Shown here: in pieces, positions 18,861 to 26,747 of the stretch
Position numbering within the stretch: the first letter of the stretch is position 1
Layout of the letters: each line of letters starts with the position of its first letter
NCBI RefSeq assembly: GCF_005870035.1
Contig: NZ_SWJG01000001.1
Span: 1,289,639-1,353,638, forward strand
DNA length: 64,000 bases
Reading direction: 5' to 3'
From: Spirosoma lacussanchae
Lineage (GTDB): Bacteria; Bacteroidota; Bacteroidia; Cytophagales; Spirosomataceae
Notes under the pieces: generated by a model
What the model was told of the DNA's origin: nothing
Seen by the model: only the letters and a program-made list of their open reading frames with translations
Database searches by the model: none
Translations under genes and position numbers: made by a program

Positions 18861-20147
18861 ATGCGTACCTTTCTCAAGCAAATAACTTTCTTCTGTCTGC
18901 TGACCCTCTGTGGGTTGGCGAGCTACGCCCACACGGGCCTCTTCAGCGATACCACCCGCGCTTATGCGGTGCCTACGCTATCCCGCACCCCCGCCGGTGA
19001 GGTGGCTCTCTCCTGGACCGAAAAAGACAACAATGGCGTAGTATACTTCTACTGGGCCAAGTCCGGCGACAAAGGCAGGACGTTTGGGGGTAAGAAACTG
19101 ATTTATTCGGCAGCGGGTATCGGTAACTCGCGGCTGATGCGGCCCAAACTGCTGTTTCGTAAGAATGGATCGCCAGTAGCTGTATTTGCCCTGCGCGGTC
19201 CCGAACCCACCAACGCACAGGCTTCGGTTGTTCCGACTGCTGATCATACCCACGGCGGACACGAAGGGCACAACGCCCCGAAGGCCGACGCGTCCAAACC
19301 GGCCCGTGGTGGTGGCCGGCCACGCGATCTGAGGATTGTTTATGTTACTTCCGCCGATCAGGGTAACACTTGGACCTTGCCCGAGCCGGTTCACGCTGAT
19401 AAAACACCGAATATTGTACGTGGTTTTTTCGACGCCACCGTGCTGGCCAACGACGAGATAGCCGTAACCTGGCTGAACGATATTCCGGGCAACGAACACG
19501 AGCAGCGCGATTTGCGGCTGGTAACAACCGCAGGCGGAAAATTTGGCGCCGAGCGCGTTCTGGACCCCTACGTTTGTGCGTGCTGCAACATCAGTCTGCT
19601 GGTCGACCCCGTCGGCACGCTGCACGTATACTATCGCGAAAACCAGGACAACATCCGCGACATTGCCCGGATGAGCTCGACGGATAACGGAAAAACCTTT
19701 ACGAAGCCTGCGATCCTGTCGAAAGACAACTGGCAGATCAACGGTTGCCCGCACTCGGGCCCAACCTCCAGCGCGGGTGGCGGCAATCCGCTGGTAGCCT
19801 GGTTCTCGGGCACGACCGATTCGCCGGGTATCCGGGTGGTGAACGGGCAGGGCAAGCGGCTGTTTGTGCTCGACGATCCTACCGCCAAAAATGCGTATCT
19901 GGTACCTGCCTCGAAGTCGTCGGTACTGCTCTGGGAGCAGAGCCAGCCGTCGGAGAGTGGCATGAGCTCGGTCATTGCGTTCCGTACCATCGACGCTGCC
20001 GGTACCGCGGCCACCCAGTACGTCAAAAATGCGCAGAACGGCACCAACGCCAGTGGGGTCGTGGTCGACGGTCAGTTGCTGGTGGCTTACGAAGTGCGGA
20101 AGCCCAACAATAAAAACGGTATCGACTGGGCGTCTGTGAGCCTGTAG
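18861..20147 (+). CDS. Secreted BNR/sialidase-fold protein with His-rich insert
   Basis: A 428-residue protein with a signal peptide (MRTFLKQITF to ASYAH). Several Asp-box motifs of six-bladed sialidase propellers are visible: KSGDKGRTFG, SADQGNTWT and SSTDNGKTFT. A His-rich loop (DHTHGGHEGHN, about residues 130-140) and a Cys cluster (YVCACCN, about 238-244) are unusual and could bind metal. I cannot see the full arginine triad of true sialidases, so glycosidase activity is unproven. It is monocistronic between divergent pepM42 and a terminator at 20187. The Cys cluster recurs, as I recall, in sialidase-annotated Bacteroidota proteins; that is memory, not checked. Confidence 0.8.
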   Translation: MRTFLKQITFFCLLTLCGLASYAHTGLFSDTTRAYAVPTLSRTPAGEVALSWTEKDNNGVVYFYWAKSGDKGRTFGGKKLIYSAAGIGNSRLMRPKLLFRKNGSPVAVFALRGPEPTNAQASVVPTADHTHGGHEGHNAPKADASKPARGGGRPRDLRIVYVTSADQGNTWTLPEPVHADKTPNIVRGFFDATVLANDEIAVTWLNDIPGNEHEQRDLRLVTTAGGKFGAERVLDPYVCACCNISLLVDPVGTLHVYYRENQDNIRDIARMSSTDNGKTFTKPAILSKDNWQINGCPHSGPTSSAGGGNPLVAWFSGTTDSPGIRVVNGQGKRLFVLDDPTAKNAYLVPASKSSVLLWEQSQPSESGMSSVIAFRTIDAAGTAATQYVKNAQNGTNASGVVVDGQLLVAYEVRKPNNKNGIDWASVSL

Positions 20148-20186: not shown

Positions 20187-20231
20187 AGCATGGCCACGTC
20201 CGATTCCTGTCAGACGTGGCCATGCTGTTTT
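20187..20231 (+). terminator. Intrinsic terminator between convergent genes
   Basis: AGCATGGCCACGTC (20187-20200) pairs perfectly with GACGTGGCCATGCT (20213-20226), followed by GTTTTT on the plus strand. It serves the 18861 gene and touches the stop of the convergent TonB receptor. Confidence 0.85.
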
Positions 20232-22591
20232 TAAAACGCGACGCGGTAGCTCAGCACCGGTAAGAGGCCTGTTTGGTAGCTGGTGCGGGTAGTGCCGGTT
20301 TGCGGATCGAAGTAGCGGCCGAAGACATTCTGGCGATTGGTTACGTTCTGTACGTCGAGCGAGAGGGTTCTGGTGGAGCGGGGGCGGTTCTTTTTCCAGC
20401 TGAACCGCACATCGGTGCGAAAATAGTTGGGCAGCTGAACAGTATAGGCCAGGTCGTCGTACCGGACCGTTGCGCCCCGTTCCTGCGACGCGGCCAGGTC
20501 GACGGGTGTTTCGCGGTAACCGCCGTAGTAAGTCAGCTTGATATTGAGCCCGATAGTACCGTTTCGGAACAGGCCCCGGTCGCCGGTGGCTAGCTCTTTC
20601 CCCGCCAGAAAACTCGTGGCATGACGACCGTCGAAGCGGCTGCTCCGCCAGATCTGATCCGACCCCCGGTATTCGGACCGGTACAGCGACGATGACAACA
20701 GGAAATACACGCCTTTATTCAGAAACTGCTCCAGGGTCAGCTCCAGCCCGTAGTTACGTCCCGTACCGCTGTTGACCAGCTTGTCGGTGCTCAGCCCGTC
20801 GAGGAAATTGATGATGGAGAATGAGTCGGCCGTGTCGGCACTGACCGGAATATTGAACAGCGACTGGTAGTAGGTTTCGGCTTTCAGCCGCAGCTGATCG
20901 GTCAGGCGACGGTCATAAGCCAGTACGACATGATGCGAACGGGTGAAGCCAAGCGCCTGGTTCGACCGCTGACCGACCCCGGGCGAGGTAGCAAACAGAA
21001 CGGCCGGGTTCTGGGTCTGGCTGTGGAGGCCGTAGCCCAGGCTGAGCGACTGCCCCGGCCGGAACGACCAGCGTACCGACCCACGCGGCTCCAGGGCGTC
21101 GGACCCGTTCAGGAAGAGCCGCAGGTAATGCAGCCCGGCGTTTACGGTCAACTGCTCCGACAGCCGGTAATTCCACTGCCCGAATGCTTGTAGCGTAACC
21201 GTAGACTGACCAGGTACCCGTACGGTGGTAACAACCCGTTCCTGATCGGCCGCCCATTCATCGCGGGCGAGGGTATAGCCGATCTGCGACCCAATCAGAC
21301 CAGCCCGAATGGTGTGCTGGCTCGTCAGCTTGTAGGTCAGGGTGCTGGAAGCAATGGCTTTTCGGATGGTATACTGTTCCCGGTACCGAAGTTCGGGGCG
21401 GTACTGCTCGGTCAGGTAATCGCTCTGGTAGCGGTTCTGGTAACCCGAACCGGAAAAGACCGTTTTAAGAAACGCCCGCGGGCCGATATTGATCGCGTGC
21501 GTGGCACCAACGGCGCCTGTATTGGCCGTAAACCGATCGTCGTAGCGTTCGTAGCTGGCCCGCCAGACCGTTGAGTCGCGGACGGCATCGGTGTTCTGGC
21601 TGCTGAGGCCGCCAAAGCCGAAGAGGGTAAACGTGCCGGCTTTGGCGGTGGGCAGGTAAACGTTGAACGACACATCCTGAAAGGTGGTCACGCCCGTGCC
21701 TACGTCCAGCCCCAGTCTGCTCAGCAAGCCAAGGGTGGAGTAGCGGTAGTTGAACAGGTACGACCCTTTGTACCGCTTGCTGAATGGCCCCTCGCTCGAT
21801 ACGTCGATCCCCAGCACCCCCGCCTGAATGGTATGTTCCGGCTTCTGGTTGTTGCCCCGACGCAGCCGCAGATCGAAAACGCCCGAGAGCGCGTTGCCGT
21901 ATTCGGCCGGAAACGCCCCCGTCATGAAGTCGGAATTAGCCAGTAGCTGGGCGCTCAGAATCGAGATGCCCCCCGACGCGGTGCCTACGTTGGCGAAGTG
22001 ATTGGGGTTCGGAATCTCGACGCCTTCCATCCGCCAGAGCAGTCCGTTAGGGGTGTTGCCCCGGATAACGATGGTGTTGTTGCCGTCGCTGGCCCCGACT
22101 ACCCCGGCGTAGGCCGTGGCCATGCGGGCCGGGTCGTTGACGGCTGCGGCAAAGCGCTGCGTCTCTTCGACCGAGAACGTACGGGCCGATACCGTTGCCA
22201 TTTCGTTCAGCGGTTTGTCTTTCTCGACAGTAGGCTTCACCGTTACTTCGGCCAGCTGGCCAATGGCTTCTTCAAGAGCTACGGTGAGTACCAGTTCTTT
22301 TCCGGCATCGACAACTACGTTGGCCAACAGGGCGTCTTTGTAGCCGACAAATGAAATCCGGAGGGTTTGCCGCCCAACCGGAACGCCAGCCAGTCGAAAC
22401 GATCCGTCGGTGTCGGTGAGGGTTCCCCTGGCTGGTGTAGCCGTCTGAAGAACGACCGTGGCGCCGGGAATGGGAGTTTGCAGGCTTTGGTCGACCACGA
22501 CCCCGCGCACGGTTTGAGTCAGCGGTTGGGCCATTGTGATGAGGGGTAGAAAGAGGCCGATTAGTAGCGTCGGCAGGAGCGGGAAGCGCAT
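20231..22591 (-). CDS. TonB-dependent receptor lacking an STN domain
   Basis: A 786-residue outer membrane receptor. Order: signal peptide (to about residue 21, ITMAQ), carboxypeptidase regulatory-like domain (VRGVVVDQSLQTPIPGATVV, about 28-110), plug domain (about 135-250: TIVIRGNTPNGLLWRMEGVE, GAFPAEYGNALSGVFDLRL) and a barrel ending in a terminal Phe (LPVLSYRVAF). It is the last gene of the leftward sigma-FecR-STN operon. The STN signalling domain expected on a transducer is on the preceding gene instead. The substrate is unknown. Confidence 0.92.
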   Translation of the reverse strand: MRFPLLPTLLIGLFLPLITMAQPLTQTVRGVVVDQSLQTPIPGATVVLQTATPARGTLTDTDGSFRLAGVPVGRQTLRISFVGYKDALLANVVVDAGKELVLTVALEEAIGQLAEVTVKPTVEKDKPLNEMATVSARTFSVEETQRFAAAVNDPARMATAYAGVVGASDGNNTIVIRGNTPNGLLWRMEGVEIPNPNHFANVGTASGGISILSAQLLANSDFMTGAFPAEYGNALSGVFDLRLRRGNNQKPEHTIQAGVLGIDVSSEGPFSKRYKGSYLFNYRYSTLGLLSRLGLDVGTGVTTFQDVSFNVYLPTAKAGTFTLFGFGGLSSQNTDAVRDSTVWRASYERYDDRFTANTGAVGATHAINIGPRAFLKTVFSGSGYQNRYQSDYLTEQYRPELRYREQYTIRKAIASSTLTYKLTSQHTIRAGLIGSQIGYTLARDEWAADQERVVTTVRVPGQSTVTLQAFGQWNYRLSEQLTVNAGLHYLRLFLNGSDALEPRGSVRWSFRPGQSLSLGYGLHSQTQNPAVLFATSPGVGQRSNQALGFTRSHHVVLAYDRRLTDQLRLKAETYYQSLFNIPVSADTADSFSIINFLDGLSTDKLVNSGTGRNYGLELTLEQFLNKGVYFLLSSSLYRSEYRGSDQIWRSSRFDGRHATSFLAGKELATGDRGLFRNGTIGLNIKLTYYGGYRETPVDLAASQERGATVRYDDLAYTVQLPNYFRTDVRFSWKKNRPRSTRTLSLDVQNVTNRQNVFGRYFDPQTGTTRTSYQTGLLPVLSYRVAF

Positions 22592-22625: not shown

Positions 22626-22662
22626 CCCGCTCAGTAACCCCCACGAGCGGGGGGCTTTTTTT
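22626..22662 (+). terminator. Terminator-like hairpin pointing against the surrounding genes
   Basis: CCCGCTC (22626-22632) pairs with GAGCGGG (22645-22651), followed by GGGC and seven T (22656-22662) on the plus strand. The flanking genes are both on the minus strand, where the T tract would precede the hairpin, so it should not stop their mRNA. It could end an antisense transcript. Confidence 0.5.
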
Positions 22663-24547
22663 ACAGGCTGTACCGCAGCCCTACCTGCCAGCCCAGCCAG
22701 CCCGACCATTCGTCGCGGGTGTTGTCCGGCGCGTCGGGGGTCAGAATAGCCGCCGGGAGCGACTGGTTGCGCAGGGGGTTGAGAAATACATCGTTCGAGT
22801 AGTAGCCGTTGAGCGTCGGCCCTGCCGTAATACCCAGTCCGGCGGCTATCTGTTTGCTGAGCTGGGGAGAGAGCCGCAGCAGCATGTTCAGGTTATCGAT
22901 CCACTCATCGGTGCGGTTGAGCTGGTGTACGCTGCCTTCCAGCGATACCGACCAGCCGCGTCGTTCGGCCGTAGCGGTGCCCAGCCCGTAGCCGTAACTC
23001 CAGAAGCGTCCGCCCGGATTATACCCGGCCGTGAAGAGGTTATAAAACGAGCGAACCCCCGTCCGGAACGTGGCGTTGAGGGGCGTGACCTCGTTGGCCG
23101 AAGCCTCTATGGCCCGGTACCCATTCGTCTGTACGTAGCTGAAAAAACCGACGGGTGCGCGCTCCGACGAGCGGGCCAGGTTGATGAAGCCTACCTGTCG
23201 GCCACTGACCACGTCGCGGGCTACGTTCAGAAAACCGCTCACCTGCCAGCCCCGTAGTTGGCCCCGAACCACATTGGTGAATCCGGCCACCTGGAAACCA
23301 CCCGCATCGCCCCCGACCACATTGGCAAAACCGGCTGCCTGAGCGCCCTGCACCCTGGACCGGTCGGCGTTGAGGAAGCCAGCCAGCTGAACGCCCTGCA
23401 CGTCTTTTCGGACCACATTCAGAAACCCGGCCGCCTGCAGGCCCCGAACGGTGCCGCCAACGGTATTGACGAAGCCCGCCAGTTGCACCGGCCCAACGTT
23501 GCCCTGGGTTGTATTCATGAATCCTGCGAGCTGAACCCCCTGCGTATTGCCCCCAACGAGGTTTCCGAAACCGGCTGCCTGCACCCCCTGCACGTCTTCG
23601 CGGACGAGGTTGAACAAGCCACCAAACTCGGCCTTCCGTACGCCCAGCGAATGCCCGATCAAAATGTTGACCGAATAGTCGTTGATAATACGGCCACCCA
23701 GCCCCCGGTTTGTGCCGATACCCGGCAGAAATGATACCTGCCAGGTGCGGTACAGCGTGTCGCGGTCGAGGTTGATATCGGTCAGGAGTTGCCGGGTCGA
23801 CAGCGCCCAGCGGCCAATGGTTTGCCGGCTCCGGTCCAGAAACGATGCGGGCATCGGTACCGTACCCGAATCGGCCGAGGCAAAGACGACGGGCCGTTCA
23901 GCCAGAATCGGGCCGGGCCGACTGGCTGAATCGGTCGGTAACGGCCGGGTGTCGAGCGGACTGACGGCAGCAGGCCGGGGCAGGGGAGTCAGGTAAATAT
24001 TCTGGGGCTGCGACCGGCGCGACGGAATGGCCAGCGACTGGCTCAGGTAAGCCTGACGCCGAACTTCGAGCCGCACCGCAGCCAGGTCGGCCGGGAGTTT
24101 CAGCCGGTAGTAGCCGTACTCGTTAGACAGGGCCGACCGCAGCGAGTTACGTTCGAAAACGGTTACGGACCCGATCCGTTCGGTGGTTTGCCCGTCAATG
24201 ACGTAGCCGTCGAGGATAAAGTCTTTGGGCTGTTCGGGCTCGTCGGCACGGAGTAGAATGACGTGGTTACCCCGCGACCGGAGCCGGACGGTTCCGCCGA
24301 AAAGCTGCCCCAGTACCTCGCGGACGGGCCGGTTGACCACCCGCAGGCTAACGGGGCGGCTCTGGTTCAGGATGGCGGGGTTATACGAAAAGCTAAACTG
24401 GCCGGTACGGCTGATAACAGTAAGGGCTTGATTGAGCGGTTCGTTGCGCAGGGTAACCGTGATCAGCCGTTCGAGCGGGGGTGTCGACTGGGCACGCAGC
24501 CAAACCGGGGTGAGAAGCAGAAAAACGAAAATGCGAAGTAAGGTCAT
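22661..24547 (-). CDS. STN + carboxypeptidase-like protein with nine 16-residue repeats
   Basis: A 628-residue protein from the ATG at 24545-24547; a TTG at 24566-24568 would add seven residues. Order: signal peptide (to about 22), STN (secretin/TonB short N-terminal) domain (about 25-100, TVTLRNEPLNQALTVISR), carboxypeptidase regulatory-like domain (about 108-175), a Pro/Ser-rich linker, then nine repeats of 16 residues (about 321-460) with consensus GVQxAGFxNxVxxxVx, then a C-terminal region like a small barrel ending GWQVGLRYSL. STN domains normally pass TonB-receptor signals to FecR. It lies between fecR and the TonB receptor, so it is probably the signalling adaptor. The solenoid fold is inference. 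Confidence 0.85.
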   Translation of the reverse strand: MTLLRIFVFLLLTPVWLRAQSTPPLERLITVTLRNEPLNQALTVISRTGQFSFSYNPAILNQSRPVSLRVVNRPVREVLGQLFGGTVRLRSRGNHVILLRADEPEQPKDFILDGYVIDGQTTERIGSVTVFERNSLRSALSNEYGYYRLKLPADLAAVRLEVRRQAYLSQSLAIPSRRSQPQNIYLTPLPRPAAVSPLDTRPLPTDSASRPGPILAERPVVFASADSGTVPMPASFLDRSRQTIGRWALSTRQLLTDINLDRDTLYRTWQVSFLPGIGTNRGLGGRIINDYSVNILIGHSLGVRKAEFGGLFNLVREDVQGVQAAGFGNLVGGNTQGVQLAGFMNTTQGNVGPVQLAGFVNTVGGTVRGLQAAGFLNVVRKDVQGVQLAGFLNADRSRVQGAQAAGFANVVGGDAGGFQVAGFTNVVRGQLRGWQVSGFLNVARDVVSGRQVGFINLARSSERAPVGFFSYVQTNGYRAIEASANEVTPLNATFRTGVRSFYNLFTAGYNPGGRFWSYGYGLGTATAERRGWSVSLEGSVHQLNRTDEWIDNLNMLLRLSPQLSKQIAAGLGITAGPTLNGYYSNDVFLNPLRNQSLPAAILTPDAPDNTRDEWSGWLGWQVGLRYSL

Positions 24548-24607: not shown

Positions 24608-25639
24608 TTATTGTCCACAGCCAGCGCCGGTAAGTACGCGCGTATTGCCGTCGCGTCGGACGGTTAGCGACAGGGTTTCGGCCACCACCGCCAGCACGGC
24701 ATCGGCCGATTCGCGGTTGAAGTCGGCCGTCAGCCGGCAGTTGCTGAGGGCGGGTGTATCGAGCCGGATGTCAGTACCGTAAACATCGTGCAGCGTTCGC
24801 ACCACCTCGGCCAGCGAGGTATTGACAAACGACAGGCGCCCGGTCTGATAGGCCAGCTGGTTGGCATCCAGGGCTACCGGTCGGCGGATGGTATCGGCAG
24901 TCCGCTGGTAGGTAGCCTGCTGATTGGGTGTCAGCACAATGGCCTGCCGCGGAGCTGACAGCTGTACCCGCCCGGTTCGTACCGCCACTTGCACACTATC
25001 GCCCCGCGAGCGCACATTGAACGAGGTGCCCAGTACGCGGACCACGGCCTTTCCGGCCCGTACCCGAAACGGATGCGCCGGATCATGGGTGACATCGAAA
25101 AAAGCTTCGCCGGTAAGGGAAATAGTCCGGCTGCTGTCGGTAAACGTGGCCGGATAGGTCAGCCGACTGTTGCGGTTGAGCCAGACCGTCGATCCATCGG
25201 GCAGGGTAAACTGCCGCGCGGTCGAGGTGGTGGCTACGGAGAGGAGCGCGGCTGGCTGGTCGGCGGTGCTGGAGCGGGTATAGCGCCAGACCGACACGCC
25301 GGCCAGCACCGCCAGCGCGAGCATGGCCGCTATCCGGCCGTAGCTGCGCCAGGGCGCTGGCCGAACGGGCAAGGGGCGCACAACGGTTTTGGTAACGGCT
25401 GGAGACGGCTGGTGCATTCGGCTGCGAACCTGTTGCCAGGCGGCCTCGGTATTGACCGTTTCGGTCTGGGTAAGCTGACCGGCTGTGTGCCAGATCCGGG
25501 CAAACCTATCGTATTCGCGCTGGTTGGCAGGGTCGGTCAGCCAGCGACGTATCCGTTCGGCCTCGGCTGCGGAGGCTTCGCCCGCCAGAAACTTGCCCAG
25601 CAGCGCGTCATCGATCGGTGATTGCGGTTCAGTTGCCAT
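24608..25639 (-). CDS. FecR family anti-sigma factor
   Basis: A 343-residue inner membrane regulator of the adjacent ECF sigma factor. Order: cytoplasmic N-terminal sigma-binding region (about 1-95, LLGKFLAGEASAAEAERIRRW), one membrane helix (about 103-120), FecR domain (about 138-230, FTLPDGSTVWLNRNSRLTYP, GEAFFDVTHDPAHPF, VLGTSFNVR) and C-terminal DUF4974 (about 260-340, RLSFVNTSLAEVVRTL). DUF4974 resembles STN and is expected to contact it in the periplasm. Its ATG overlaps the sigma stop by one base (TAATG), indicating coupled translation. Confidence 0.95.
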   Translation of the reverse strand: MATEPQSPIDDALLGKFLAGEASAAEAERIRRWLTDPANQREYDRFARIWHTAGQLTQTETVNTEAAWQQVRSRMHQPSPAVTKTVVRPLPVRPAPWRSYGRIAAMLALAVLAGVSVWRYTRSSTADQPAALLSVATTSTARQFTLPDGSTVWLNRNSRLTYPATFTDSSRTISLTGEAFFDVTHDPAHPFRVRAGKAVVRVLGTSFNVRSRGDSVQVAVRTGRVQLSAPRQAIVLTPNQQATYQRTADTIRRPVALDANQLAYQTGRLSFVNTSLAEVVRTLHDVYGTDIRLDTPALSNCRLTADFNRESADAVLAVVAETLSLTVRRDGNTRVLTGAGCGQ

Positions 25640-26220
25640 TATGCGCCAGTTCCCCAGGCCAGGAGAAGTAAAAGTGGTAAATAGTCGCTCAATTCAGTAC
25701 GGAGAATACGCAGTGCTTTGCCAATCTGGTTCTCGACCGTTTTGGTGGCAATACCCAGCCGATCGGCAATTTCTTTATACGATAACTCGTCGAACCGGCT
25801 CAGCTCAAACGCCCGTCGGCACTGTTCGGGTAGTCGGCCCATGGCTTGCTGAAGCCGGGTGCTCAACTCGTCGGCCATCAAATCCTGGGTTGGGCTGGGT
25901 GGGTTGCTGTACAGTTCATCGGCGGCCTGCTGGCGGTGACCGGCCTGAACGGATTGCTGGTTGAGCCGGTTGAGACAGCGGTTATGAACAGCCCGATACA
26001 GATACGCTTTCAGGGAAGTGGTAATCAACAACGATTCGCGCCGTTCCCAAACCGTCAGAAAAATCGCCTGTACCACCTCTTCGGCTTCGTCGATGTCGCC
26101 CAGCATCGGGCGGGCGTACCGGCAGAGGGGCGCGTAATACTGACGAAATACGGTCTCGAACACCGCTTCGTTGCCGATGCGGATTTCGCCGATCAGGGTT
26201 TCGTCCGGAGTTGTCTGCAC
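25639..26220 (-). CDS. ECF RNA polymerase sigma-70 factor (Bacteroidetes expansion family)
   Basis: A 193-residue extracytoplasmic-function sigma factor. Region 2 spans about 25-92 (VFRQYYAPLCRYARPML, AEEVVQAIFLTVWERR) and region 4 about 122-175 (LPEQCRRAFELSRFDELSYK, KTVENQIGKALRILR). The hydrophobic tail LPLLLLLAWG is common in this family. The start is a GTG (26218-26220). It heads the operon with fecR, the STN-solenoid gene and the TonB receptor. An inverted repeat lies 38-62 nt upstream of the start and might carry its control site. Confidence 0.95.
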   Translation of the reverse strand: MQTTPDETLIGEIRIGNEAVFETVFRQYYAPLCRYARPMLGDIDEAEEVVQAIFLTVWERRESLLITTSLKAYLYRAVHNRCLNRLNQQSVQAGHRQQAADELYSNPPSPTQDLMADELSTRLQQAMGRLPEQCRRAFELSRFDELSYKEIADRLGIATKTVENQIGKALRILRTELSDYLPLLLLLAWGTGA

Positions 26221-26336: not shown

Positions 26337-26747
26337 CTAAAACCCGATTCGTTCGCGGGGTTGTTGAGCCCCTATACTGCGAACCAGCTCGAGGGCGATT
26401 CGGTCGTCGTATTTGCGTTTCCAGTACTCGGCTTCGAGCCGGAGTTTATCGATTTCGATCTGCTGCTTCTCAACCGTCAGCCGCAGGGTTTCACGCTCGT
26501 GCTCCGCATCCTCGTCGGGCGTGTCGACGACCTGAGCCGTCAGCGCATCGTCTGACAGCAGGGCCACCGGCGACAGCTCCAGTACCGACGCGATCTGGGT
26601 CAGGCGCGTCAGCGTCAGCTCCGTCTTGCCGCGTTCTATATCGCCGTAAGCCGTAGTTGACAGGTTGAGGAGGTCGGCCATGTTTTCCTGCGAAAGTCCG
26701 CGCTGGAGCCTGTGTAGCCGTATTTTTTCTTCGACAGAGGTCTTCAT
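26337..26747 (-). CDS. XRE-family helix-turn-helix regulator with coiled-coil tail
   Basis: A 136-residue protein. The N-terminal HTH_XRE/lambda-repressor-like domain (about 8-62) reads IRLHRLQRGLSQENMADLLN, STTAYGDIERGKTELT. The C-terminal part (about 78-118) is a charged heptad-type helix (ERETLRLTVEKQQIEIDKLR, EAEYWKRKYDD), probably a dimerisation coiled coil. There is no ligand or peptidase domain. It is divergent from clpP. TTGCAT-type repeats at 26797-26829 between the two genes are a candidate operator. Confidence 0.9.
   Translation of the reverse strand: MKTSVEEKIRLHRLQRGLSQENMADLLNLSTTAYGDIERGKTELTLTRLTQIASVLELSPVALLSDDALTAQVVDTPDEDAEHERETLRLTVEKQQIEIDKLRLEAEYWKRKYDDRIALELVRSIGAQQPRERIGF

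Follow-up and report, generated by a model that had tools for sequence, protein, structure and literature searches.

The third gene of a tight minus-strand row in Spirosoma lacussanchae encodes a 628-residue protein in which an STN signalling domain is followed by an NTE-like domain, a run of 16-residue repeats and a barrel-like end, and this protein is probably itself an outer-membrane transducer of the FecA type, with a solenoid and a small barrel replacing the TonB plug and large barrel. The row is read from a FecI-type ECF sigma factor (25639..26220, minus strand, 193 aa, GTG start; TIGR02985 Sig70_bacteroi1, 172.7 bits against a cut-off of 126.4) through a FecR anti-sigma regulator (24608..25639, minus strand, 343 aa; PF04773, E 8.2e-23, with a C-terminal FecR_C domain, DUF4974, PF16344, E 3.4e-12 at residues 268-333, both above cut-off) to the STN protein and then to a TonB-dependent receptor assigned by Pfam (20231..22591, minus strand, 786 aa). 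The sigma and FecR genes overlap by one base, the STN protein starts 60 bases after FecR, and the receptor lies 69 bases beyond it. The gene for the STN protein occupies 22661..24547 on the minus strand, with its ATG at 24547 and its stop codon at 22661-22663, just as the initial annotation had placed it. That annotation was also right that the receptor of the row lacks an STN domain and that this domain sits on a separate, non-receptor protein. With Pfam, no STN match was found in the receptor, which has CarboxypepD_reg and CarbopepD_reg_2 above cut-off and Plug slightly below cut-off. The 628-residue protein has an STN match above cut-off (PF07660, residues 51-86, E 5.4e-7) and matches neither Plug nor TonB-receptor models up to E 1.

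Two further genes frame the row in the window (the whole 64,000-nucleotide stretch of DNA that was analysed). A small XRE-like helix-turn-helix regulator, recognized by eye, lies directly upstream of the sigma gene (26337-26747, minus strand), with a similar gene at the same spot in two related loci (L034 and L035). On the other side, convergent to the TonB receptor, 18861-20147 on the plus strand encodes an exported BNR-repeat (sialidase-like) protein with a CACC motif, of which a 94% copy stands at the same place in Spirosoma sordidisoli (L034). Over the best segment, the STN protein and its S. sordidisoli homologue share 93% identity.

The N-terminal part of the protein forms the signalling front end. 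A hydrophobic N-terminus ending in LRAQS looks by eye like a signal peptide of about residues 1-20 (24488..24547, minus strand). The STN domain spans residues 28-100 (24248..24466, minus strand), as judged from PF07660 together with the match of its model to the signalling domains of PupB (9cuv; TM 0.69 on target, Foldseek E 0.04) and PupA (2a02; TM 0.73 on target, Foldseek E 0.09), and its residues are conserved in an alignment of relatives. For residues 110-190 (23978..24220, minus strand) the carboxypeptidase-like domain proposed initially is borne out by structure: CarbopepD_reg_2 (PF13715) at residues 113-184 stays below cut-off with E 4.4e-4, but the model of this part aligns with the transthyretin-like 5aq0 (Z 12.9, rmsd 1.6 over 79) and with the NTE domain of SusCdex (9hfj; Z 12.7, rmsd 2.1 over 80). 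Foldseek with the whole-protein model returned no match at E 0.001 or better, the top ones being transthyretin-like domains, and sequence searches of solved structures, with the 628-residue protein and with its C-terminal profile, matched nothing. Within residues 19-188, the protein shares 29-30% identity with three receptor-sized ORFs of the same genome. A linker of low model confidence follows (residues 192-262; 23762..23974, minus strand; pLDDT < 50 in the full model).

Residues 297-462 (23162..23659, minus strand) are built of repeats with a period of 16 and two predicted strands per coil. The strict motif G/P-x-Q-x-x-G-F/L-x-N occurs in eight copies at 321, 337, ..., 433, spaced by exactly 16 residues; a degenerate copy at 305 is in register, and another at 449 is shifted within its unit. 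Of the nine exact repeats first reported, the exact spacing therefore stands while the count becomes eight strict copies and one degenerate copy in register. Residues 301-460 contain 68 identities at lag 16, compared with a best value of 34 in 10,000 shuffles over lags 5-48, which rules out a chance origin. Tandem Repeats Finder (TRF) finds no tandem DNA array, so the period is kept at the protein level, and an assembly artefact is unlikely because relatives retain the repeats. Copy number varies, with nine strict copies in the 644-residue S. sordidisoli protein and eight in the 628 residues here. AlphaFold2, which was run on nine sequences, gave the whole protein a mean pLDDT of 67 with a pTM of 0.41, and the C-terminal half a mean pLDDT of 69 with a pTM of 0.53. 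The repeats come out as predicted order, as the earlier reading required of a solenoid: block means of pLDDT are 69-88 for residues 301-460 of the whole-protein model, and in the model of the C-terminal half the repeats score best, with block means of 76-89 at residues 61-200 of that model. Over its range 15-307, this half-model aligns with 3p4g, an antifreeze protein of beta-helical fold, at Z 20.4 (rmsd 3.2 over 223 residues), and the repeat region is predicted to be an ordered beta-solenoid. A viral structure library searched with the C-terminal half gave three matches at E <= 0.001 with TM-scores of at most 0.17, which we read as generic beta-helix.

The last 165 residues (464-628; 22664..23158, minus strand), which end in WLGWQVGLRYSL, form six long strands in the models and look like an outer-membrane barrel, in line with the small barrel-like end noticed initially. 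Ahead of the repeats, two conserved strands with an IINDYS motif (residues 265-294; 23666..23755, minus strand) stand out as invariant alignment columns and as low-confidence strands in the model, and they are a possible first hairpin of the barrel. Together with the six C-terminal strands they could make an eight-strand barrel, in which case, by a parity argument, the solenoid would be inserted into a turn on the periplasmic side. Among 110 matching ORFs, a set that includes the second genome copies L093 and L095 and a fragment from L114, 85 end in F, L, I or W. Alternation of strand faces reaches p < 0.05 (uncorrected) in three of the six C-terminal strands. Model confidence for the barrel part is modest (block pLDDT 40-79 over residues 251-379 of the C-terminal-half model), and no solved barrel was a clear match in sequence or fold searches with the protein, the C-terminal profile or the models. 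Structural alignment of two models likewise placed no outer-membrane barrel among the best 50 rows of each; the solenoid takes up these rows, joined in the full model by the NTE-like domain, so that they do not address the barrel. An outer-membrane location is more likely than the freely secreted protein that had been proposed.

Within its own genome the protein is an exception. S. lacussanchae has nine STN-bearing ORFs with 10 matches (two in one ORF), and the other eight are receptor-sized at 1144-1264 aa, each at most about 1.2 kb from a FecR match. Beyond this genome, 35 of 59 genomes around the window, its own included, have a match, as do 64 of 296 genomes in a phylum sample, some of them through only N-terminal matches in longer ORFs. 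Within the window's order, the C-terminal half as query matches 142 of 341 sampled genomes and 67 of 121 genera, with STN not in all of them.

Profiles applied to fetched loci picked out, across 83 genomes of related bacteria, 86 proteins that combine STN and repeats in a single ORF; the loci were hand-chosen among search matches, so the 86 are not a random sample, and 40 of the stretches were picked partly for a long ORF without a listed STN match, which favours odd architectures. Two loci (L093 and L095) were removed because L035 and L036 already represent their genomes, and three more were left out of the count (L114, for its broken frames, and L091 and L177, 1 kb). In L114 (G015), the FecR and STN-repeat genes are broken into several frames by decay or sequencing error. 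Neighbours were sought within the fetched stretches of 3.6-20 kb, 'absent' meaning not seen there, and the profiles were partly built from the counted loci. On this basis FecR is directly upstream (same strand, <= 500 bases) in 82 of the 86, and a sigma factor is present in 69, leaving 17 with none by profile. Inside Spirosoma both are found in every case (FecR 27/27, sigma 27/27), and outside it FecR accompanies 55 of 59 and sigma 42 of 59. All 15 phylum-sample genomes with both parts in one ORF also have FecR directly upstream. The expectation that the sigma-FecR-STN-repeat order is conserved among relatives is thus supported. FecR is not directly upstream in four of the 86, namely L170, L173, L176 and one of two L162 copies; the first three of these proteins have no FecR or sigma match nearby.

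Co-variation of distance matrices over 67 loci, with crude domain cuts, correlates all parts of the cassette with one another (raw r 0.52-0.80). The partial correlation between STN and FecR_C is 0.13 (Mantel p 0.006), lower than that of STN with the barrel (0.30) or of FecR_C with sigma (0.37), so nothing sets the STN-FecR_C pair apart.

The repeat-barrel module is also found without STN, in stand-alone proteins and in longer chains. No FecR or sigma match turned up in the fetched stretch at seven such loci (L085-087, L116, L123-125), and nine other STN-less module genes are extra copies beside a cassette. At six loci (L121, L147, L148, L156, L175 and L178), from families f9, f14 and f69 of the window's order, the gene directly after a sigma gene encodes a single chain carrying the repeat-barrel module. 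These chains begin with a short N-terminus and a hydrophobic segment (best 19-residue hydropathy 1.49-2.11 in five, by eye in L121) and continue through a long low-complexity stretch into the repeats and the barrel end. No Pfam domain matched their N-termini, and in the L148 chain a clear N-terminal domain is not evident by eye. A profile made from STN-type barrel ends alone, with the repeats excluded, matches all six (E 1.7e-48 to 3.8e-21), and the shared part is thus homologous outside the repeats. Sigma stands beside the chain in all six by profile; NCBIfam confirms an ECF sigma factor in five, and that of L148 has no NCBIfam match at E 1e-20. Against the FecI-type model (cut-off 126.4, window's sigma 172.7), five of these sigma factors reach 83-88 bits, and judged by these scores they are not FecI-type. 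In a quick barrel tree of 99 rows, with 41 of 96 inner branches open, the six chains are scattered; an AU test does not reject a single clade for them (p 0.98), and since the tree constrained to that clade lies 68 log units above the free tree, the free search was poor.

None of the six loci has a receptor, FecR or STN match in the fetched stretch, which suggests that the module itself is the outer-membrane end. These six relatives, in which an ECF sigma gene directly precedes a putatively membrane-anchored chain with the module, are the strongest support for reading the window protein as a transducer in its own right. By published description the chains resemble Dma anti-sigma factors, a likeness and not an assignment to that group. 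We tentatively propose, at somewhat less than even probability, that one sensor module serves two switches: STN and FecR acting onto a FecI-type sigma factor, and a tethered anti-sigma-like chain acting onto another ECF sigma factor.

What such a module would sense is suggested by a second recurrent neighbour. The DUF2807 profile matches 41 of the 86 loci, compared with about 0.01 matches per 15 kb expected by chance from a background of 73 matches in roughly 116 Mb (16 genomes). Pfam confirms DUF2807 in the eight proteins that made the profile, and in 16 genomes chosen for having DUF2807 there is a Pfam match above cut-off at every cassette. The loci with a DUF2807 (head GIN / Toastrack) gene beside the cassette include L072, L073, L075, L077, L081, L089, L090 and L038. 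Matches also lie inside frames of 807-873 aa (G001, G005, G013, G014, G017, G018, G040, G202 and others), so that DUF2807 may be fused to larger proteins too. Toastrack unifies DUF2807 and is described as tied to the PSP envelope response (PMC11237479), for which reason so frequent a neighbour points to envelope homeostasis. Accordingly, the solenoid-barrel might monitor the state of the outer membrane or surface without any specific ligand, its regulon being a DUF2807/Toastrack-type stress response; Dma factors, of similar layout, are reported to control vesicle formation (PMC13088901), which fits this picture. Against it, there is no DUF2807 gene around the window's own cassette, in 14-34 kb of the window, and co-location does not show the stimulus. 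We regard such an envelope-state sensor as possible rather than probable, and it is compatible with, not opposed to, an outer-membrane transducer.

TonB receptors are common in these bacteria, so part of their co-occurrence with the cassette is expected. In the split transducer suggested by the initial annotation, the neighbouring receptor would sense the ligand while the STN-solenoid protein would dock on it and relay the signal to FecR. The receptor does directly follow the STN gene, both in the window and in near relatives, and the receptor profile, which may catch other TonB receptors, matches 38 of the 86 loci, in other families too and either downstream of the cassette or divergent from it. 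The remaining 48, however, have no such receptor in the fetched stretch, and the same is true of the six Dma-like loci, where the module is part of a putatively membrane-anchored chain. This division of labour is therefore unlikely. A receptor or a DUF2807 gene is found in 61 of the 86 loci and both in 18; because the receptor is not constant and DUF2807 is as frequent, a role as the transducer is more likely for the protein than one as a relay, and a receptor that does accompany the cassette would more likely be a partner or a target of regulation.

Least probable, and in our view improbable, is a structural periplasmic or surface protein whose STN domain is a leftover, with the FecR system run by another STN receptor: the genome does hold other STN proteins and three of the 86 proteins lack FecR and sigma neighbours, but STN and FecR are linked in 82 of 86, the STN residues are conserved, and seven stand-alone repeat loci show no FecR link.

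Returning to the window protein as an outer-membrane transducer, its C-terminal strands would insert in the outer membrane, where a ligand or the state of the envelope would alter the solenoid-barrel. The change would travel along the NTE-like domain and the linker and reach STN, which may hold FecR by its C-terminal domain in the periplasm. Once this contact is changed or lost, FecR would be processed and the FecI-type sigma factor freed, which might then transcribe its own row and perhaps the TonB receptor and/or a DUF2807 gene. As no plug or TonB-receptor barrel was detected, TonB energy input would not be expected. Accounts of FecA-type signalling usually treat it as a by-product of TonB-driven import; a conserved cassette with the same front end on another module would separate sensing from import and make the system modular. 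The cassette would also offer a plug-free case for the question of whether STN shields FecR until the signal arrives (PMC11637429), FoxA and FoxR being described there as a pair in which STN can hold the FecR-type protein before the signal.

Among known systems, the closest are FecA/FecR/FecI, FpvA, PupB and FoxA, the classical signalling chain being summarised in PMC9249621. The window row has in common with them a FecI-type sigma factor, a FecR protein with FecR_C, and an N-terminal STN domain on an exported partner, all in one row. It differs in that, by Pfam, STN is not on a TonB-dependent receptor; the domain is joined to a module made of a solenoid and a small barrel-like end, in which neither a plug nor a TonB-receptor barrel was detected. 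SusC-type receptors with STN and NTE share the order of STN and then an NTE-like domain, and they continue into a 22-strand barrel, whereas Pfam detects neither plug nor receptor barrel in the window protein. The LA_2272 surface repeat family (NF047436) is recognized above cut-off in the repeats of six of ten related proteins scanned, while the window protein, at 10 bits against a cut-off of 25, falls below it and has STN and NTE-like domains in addition.

The initial annotation knew of no described system with this layout. We likewise found no paper on an STN protein of this architecture among the matches listed (title and start of abstract), a search that covered few subscription journals and is weak evidence of absence. 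A signalling domain away from a receptor barrel is, however, on record: in Pseudomonas aeruginosa, VreA combines a FecA-type signalling domain with a TolA/TonB-like second domain in place of the barrel, and is described as mostly soluble and thought to be periplasmic (PMC2729926). The VreA/VreR/VreI (PUMA3) system resembles the window row in pairing such a protein with an anti-sigma and an ECF sigma factor. The window protein differs in its second part, predicted as a solenoid with a barrel-like end; Pfam gives no TolA/TonB-like C-terminal domain, and the C-terminal model consists of the solenoid and long strands. Dma factors, as described in PMC13088901, couple an outer-membrane barrel to an ECF sigma factor, and the six relatives are similar to them in layout. 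Hallmarks of Dma factors are an N-terminal domain that binds a sigma factor of the ECF21 type, a membrane helix, a long disordered tether and a C-terminal barrel. Compared by that description, the link between the two ends is one chain in Dma factors and two proteins, STN and FecR, in the window. If the proposed reading is true, the STN-FecR contact would be the functional equivalent of a covalent periplasmic tether, and FecA-type signalling and Dma factors would be two TonB-independent solutions to one task.
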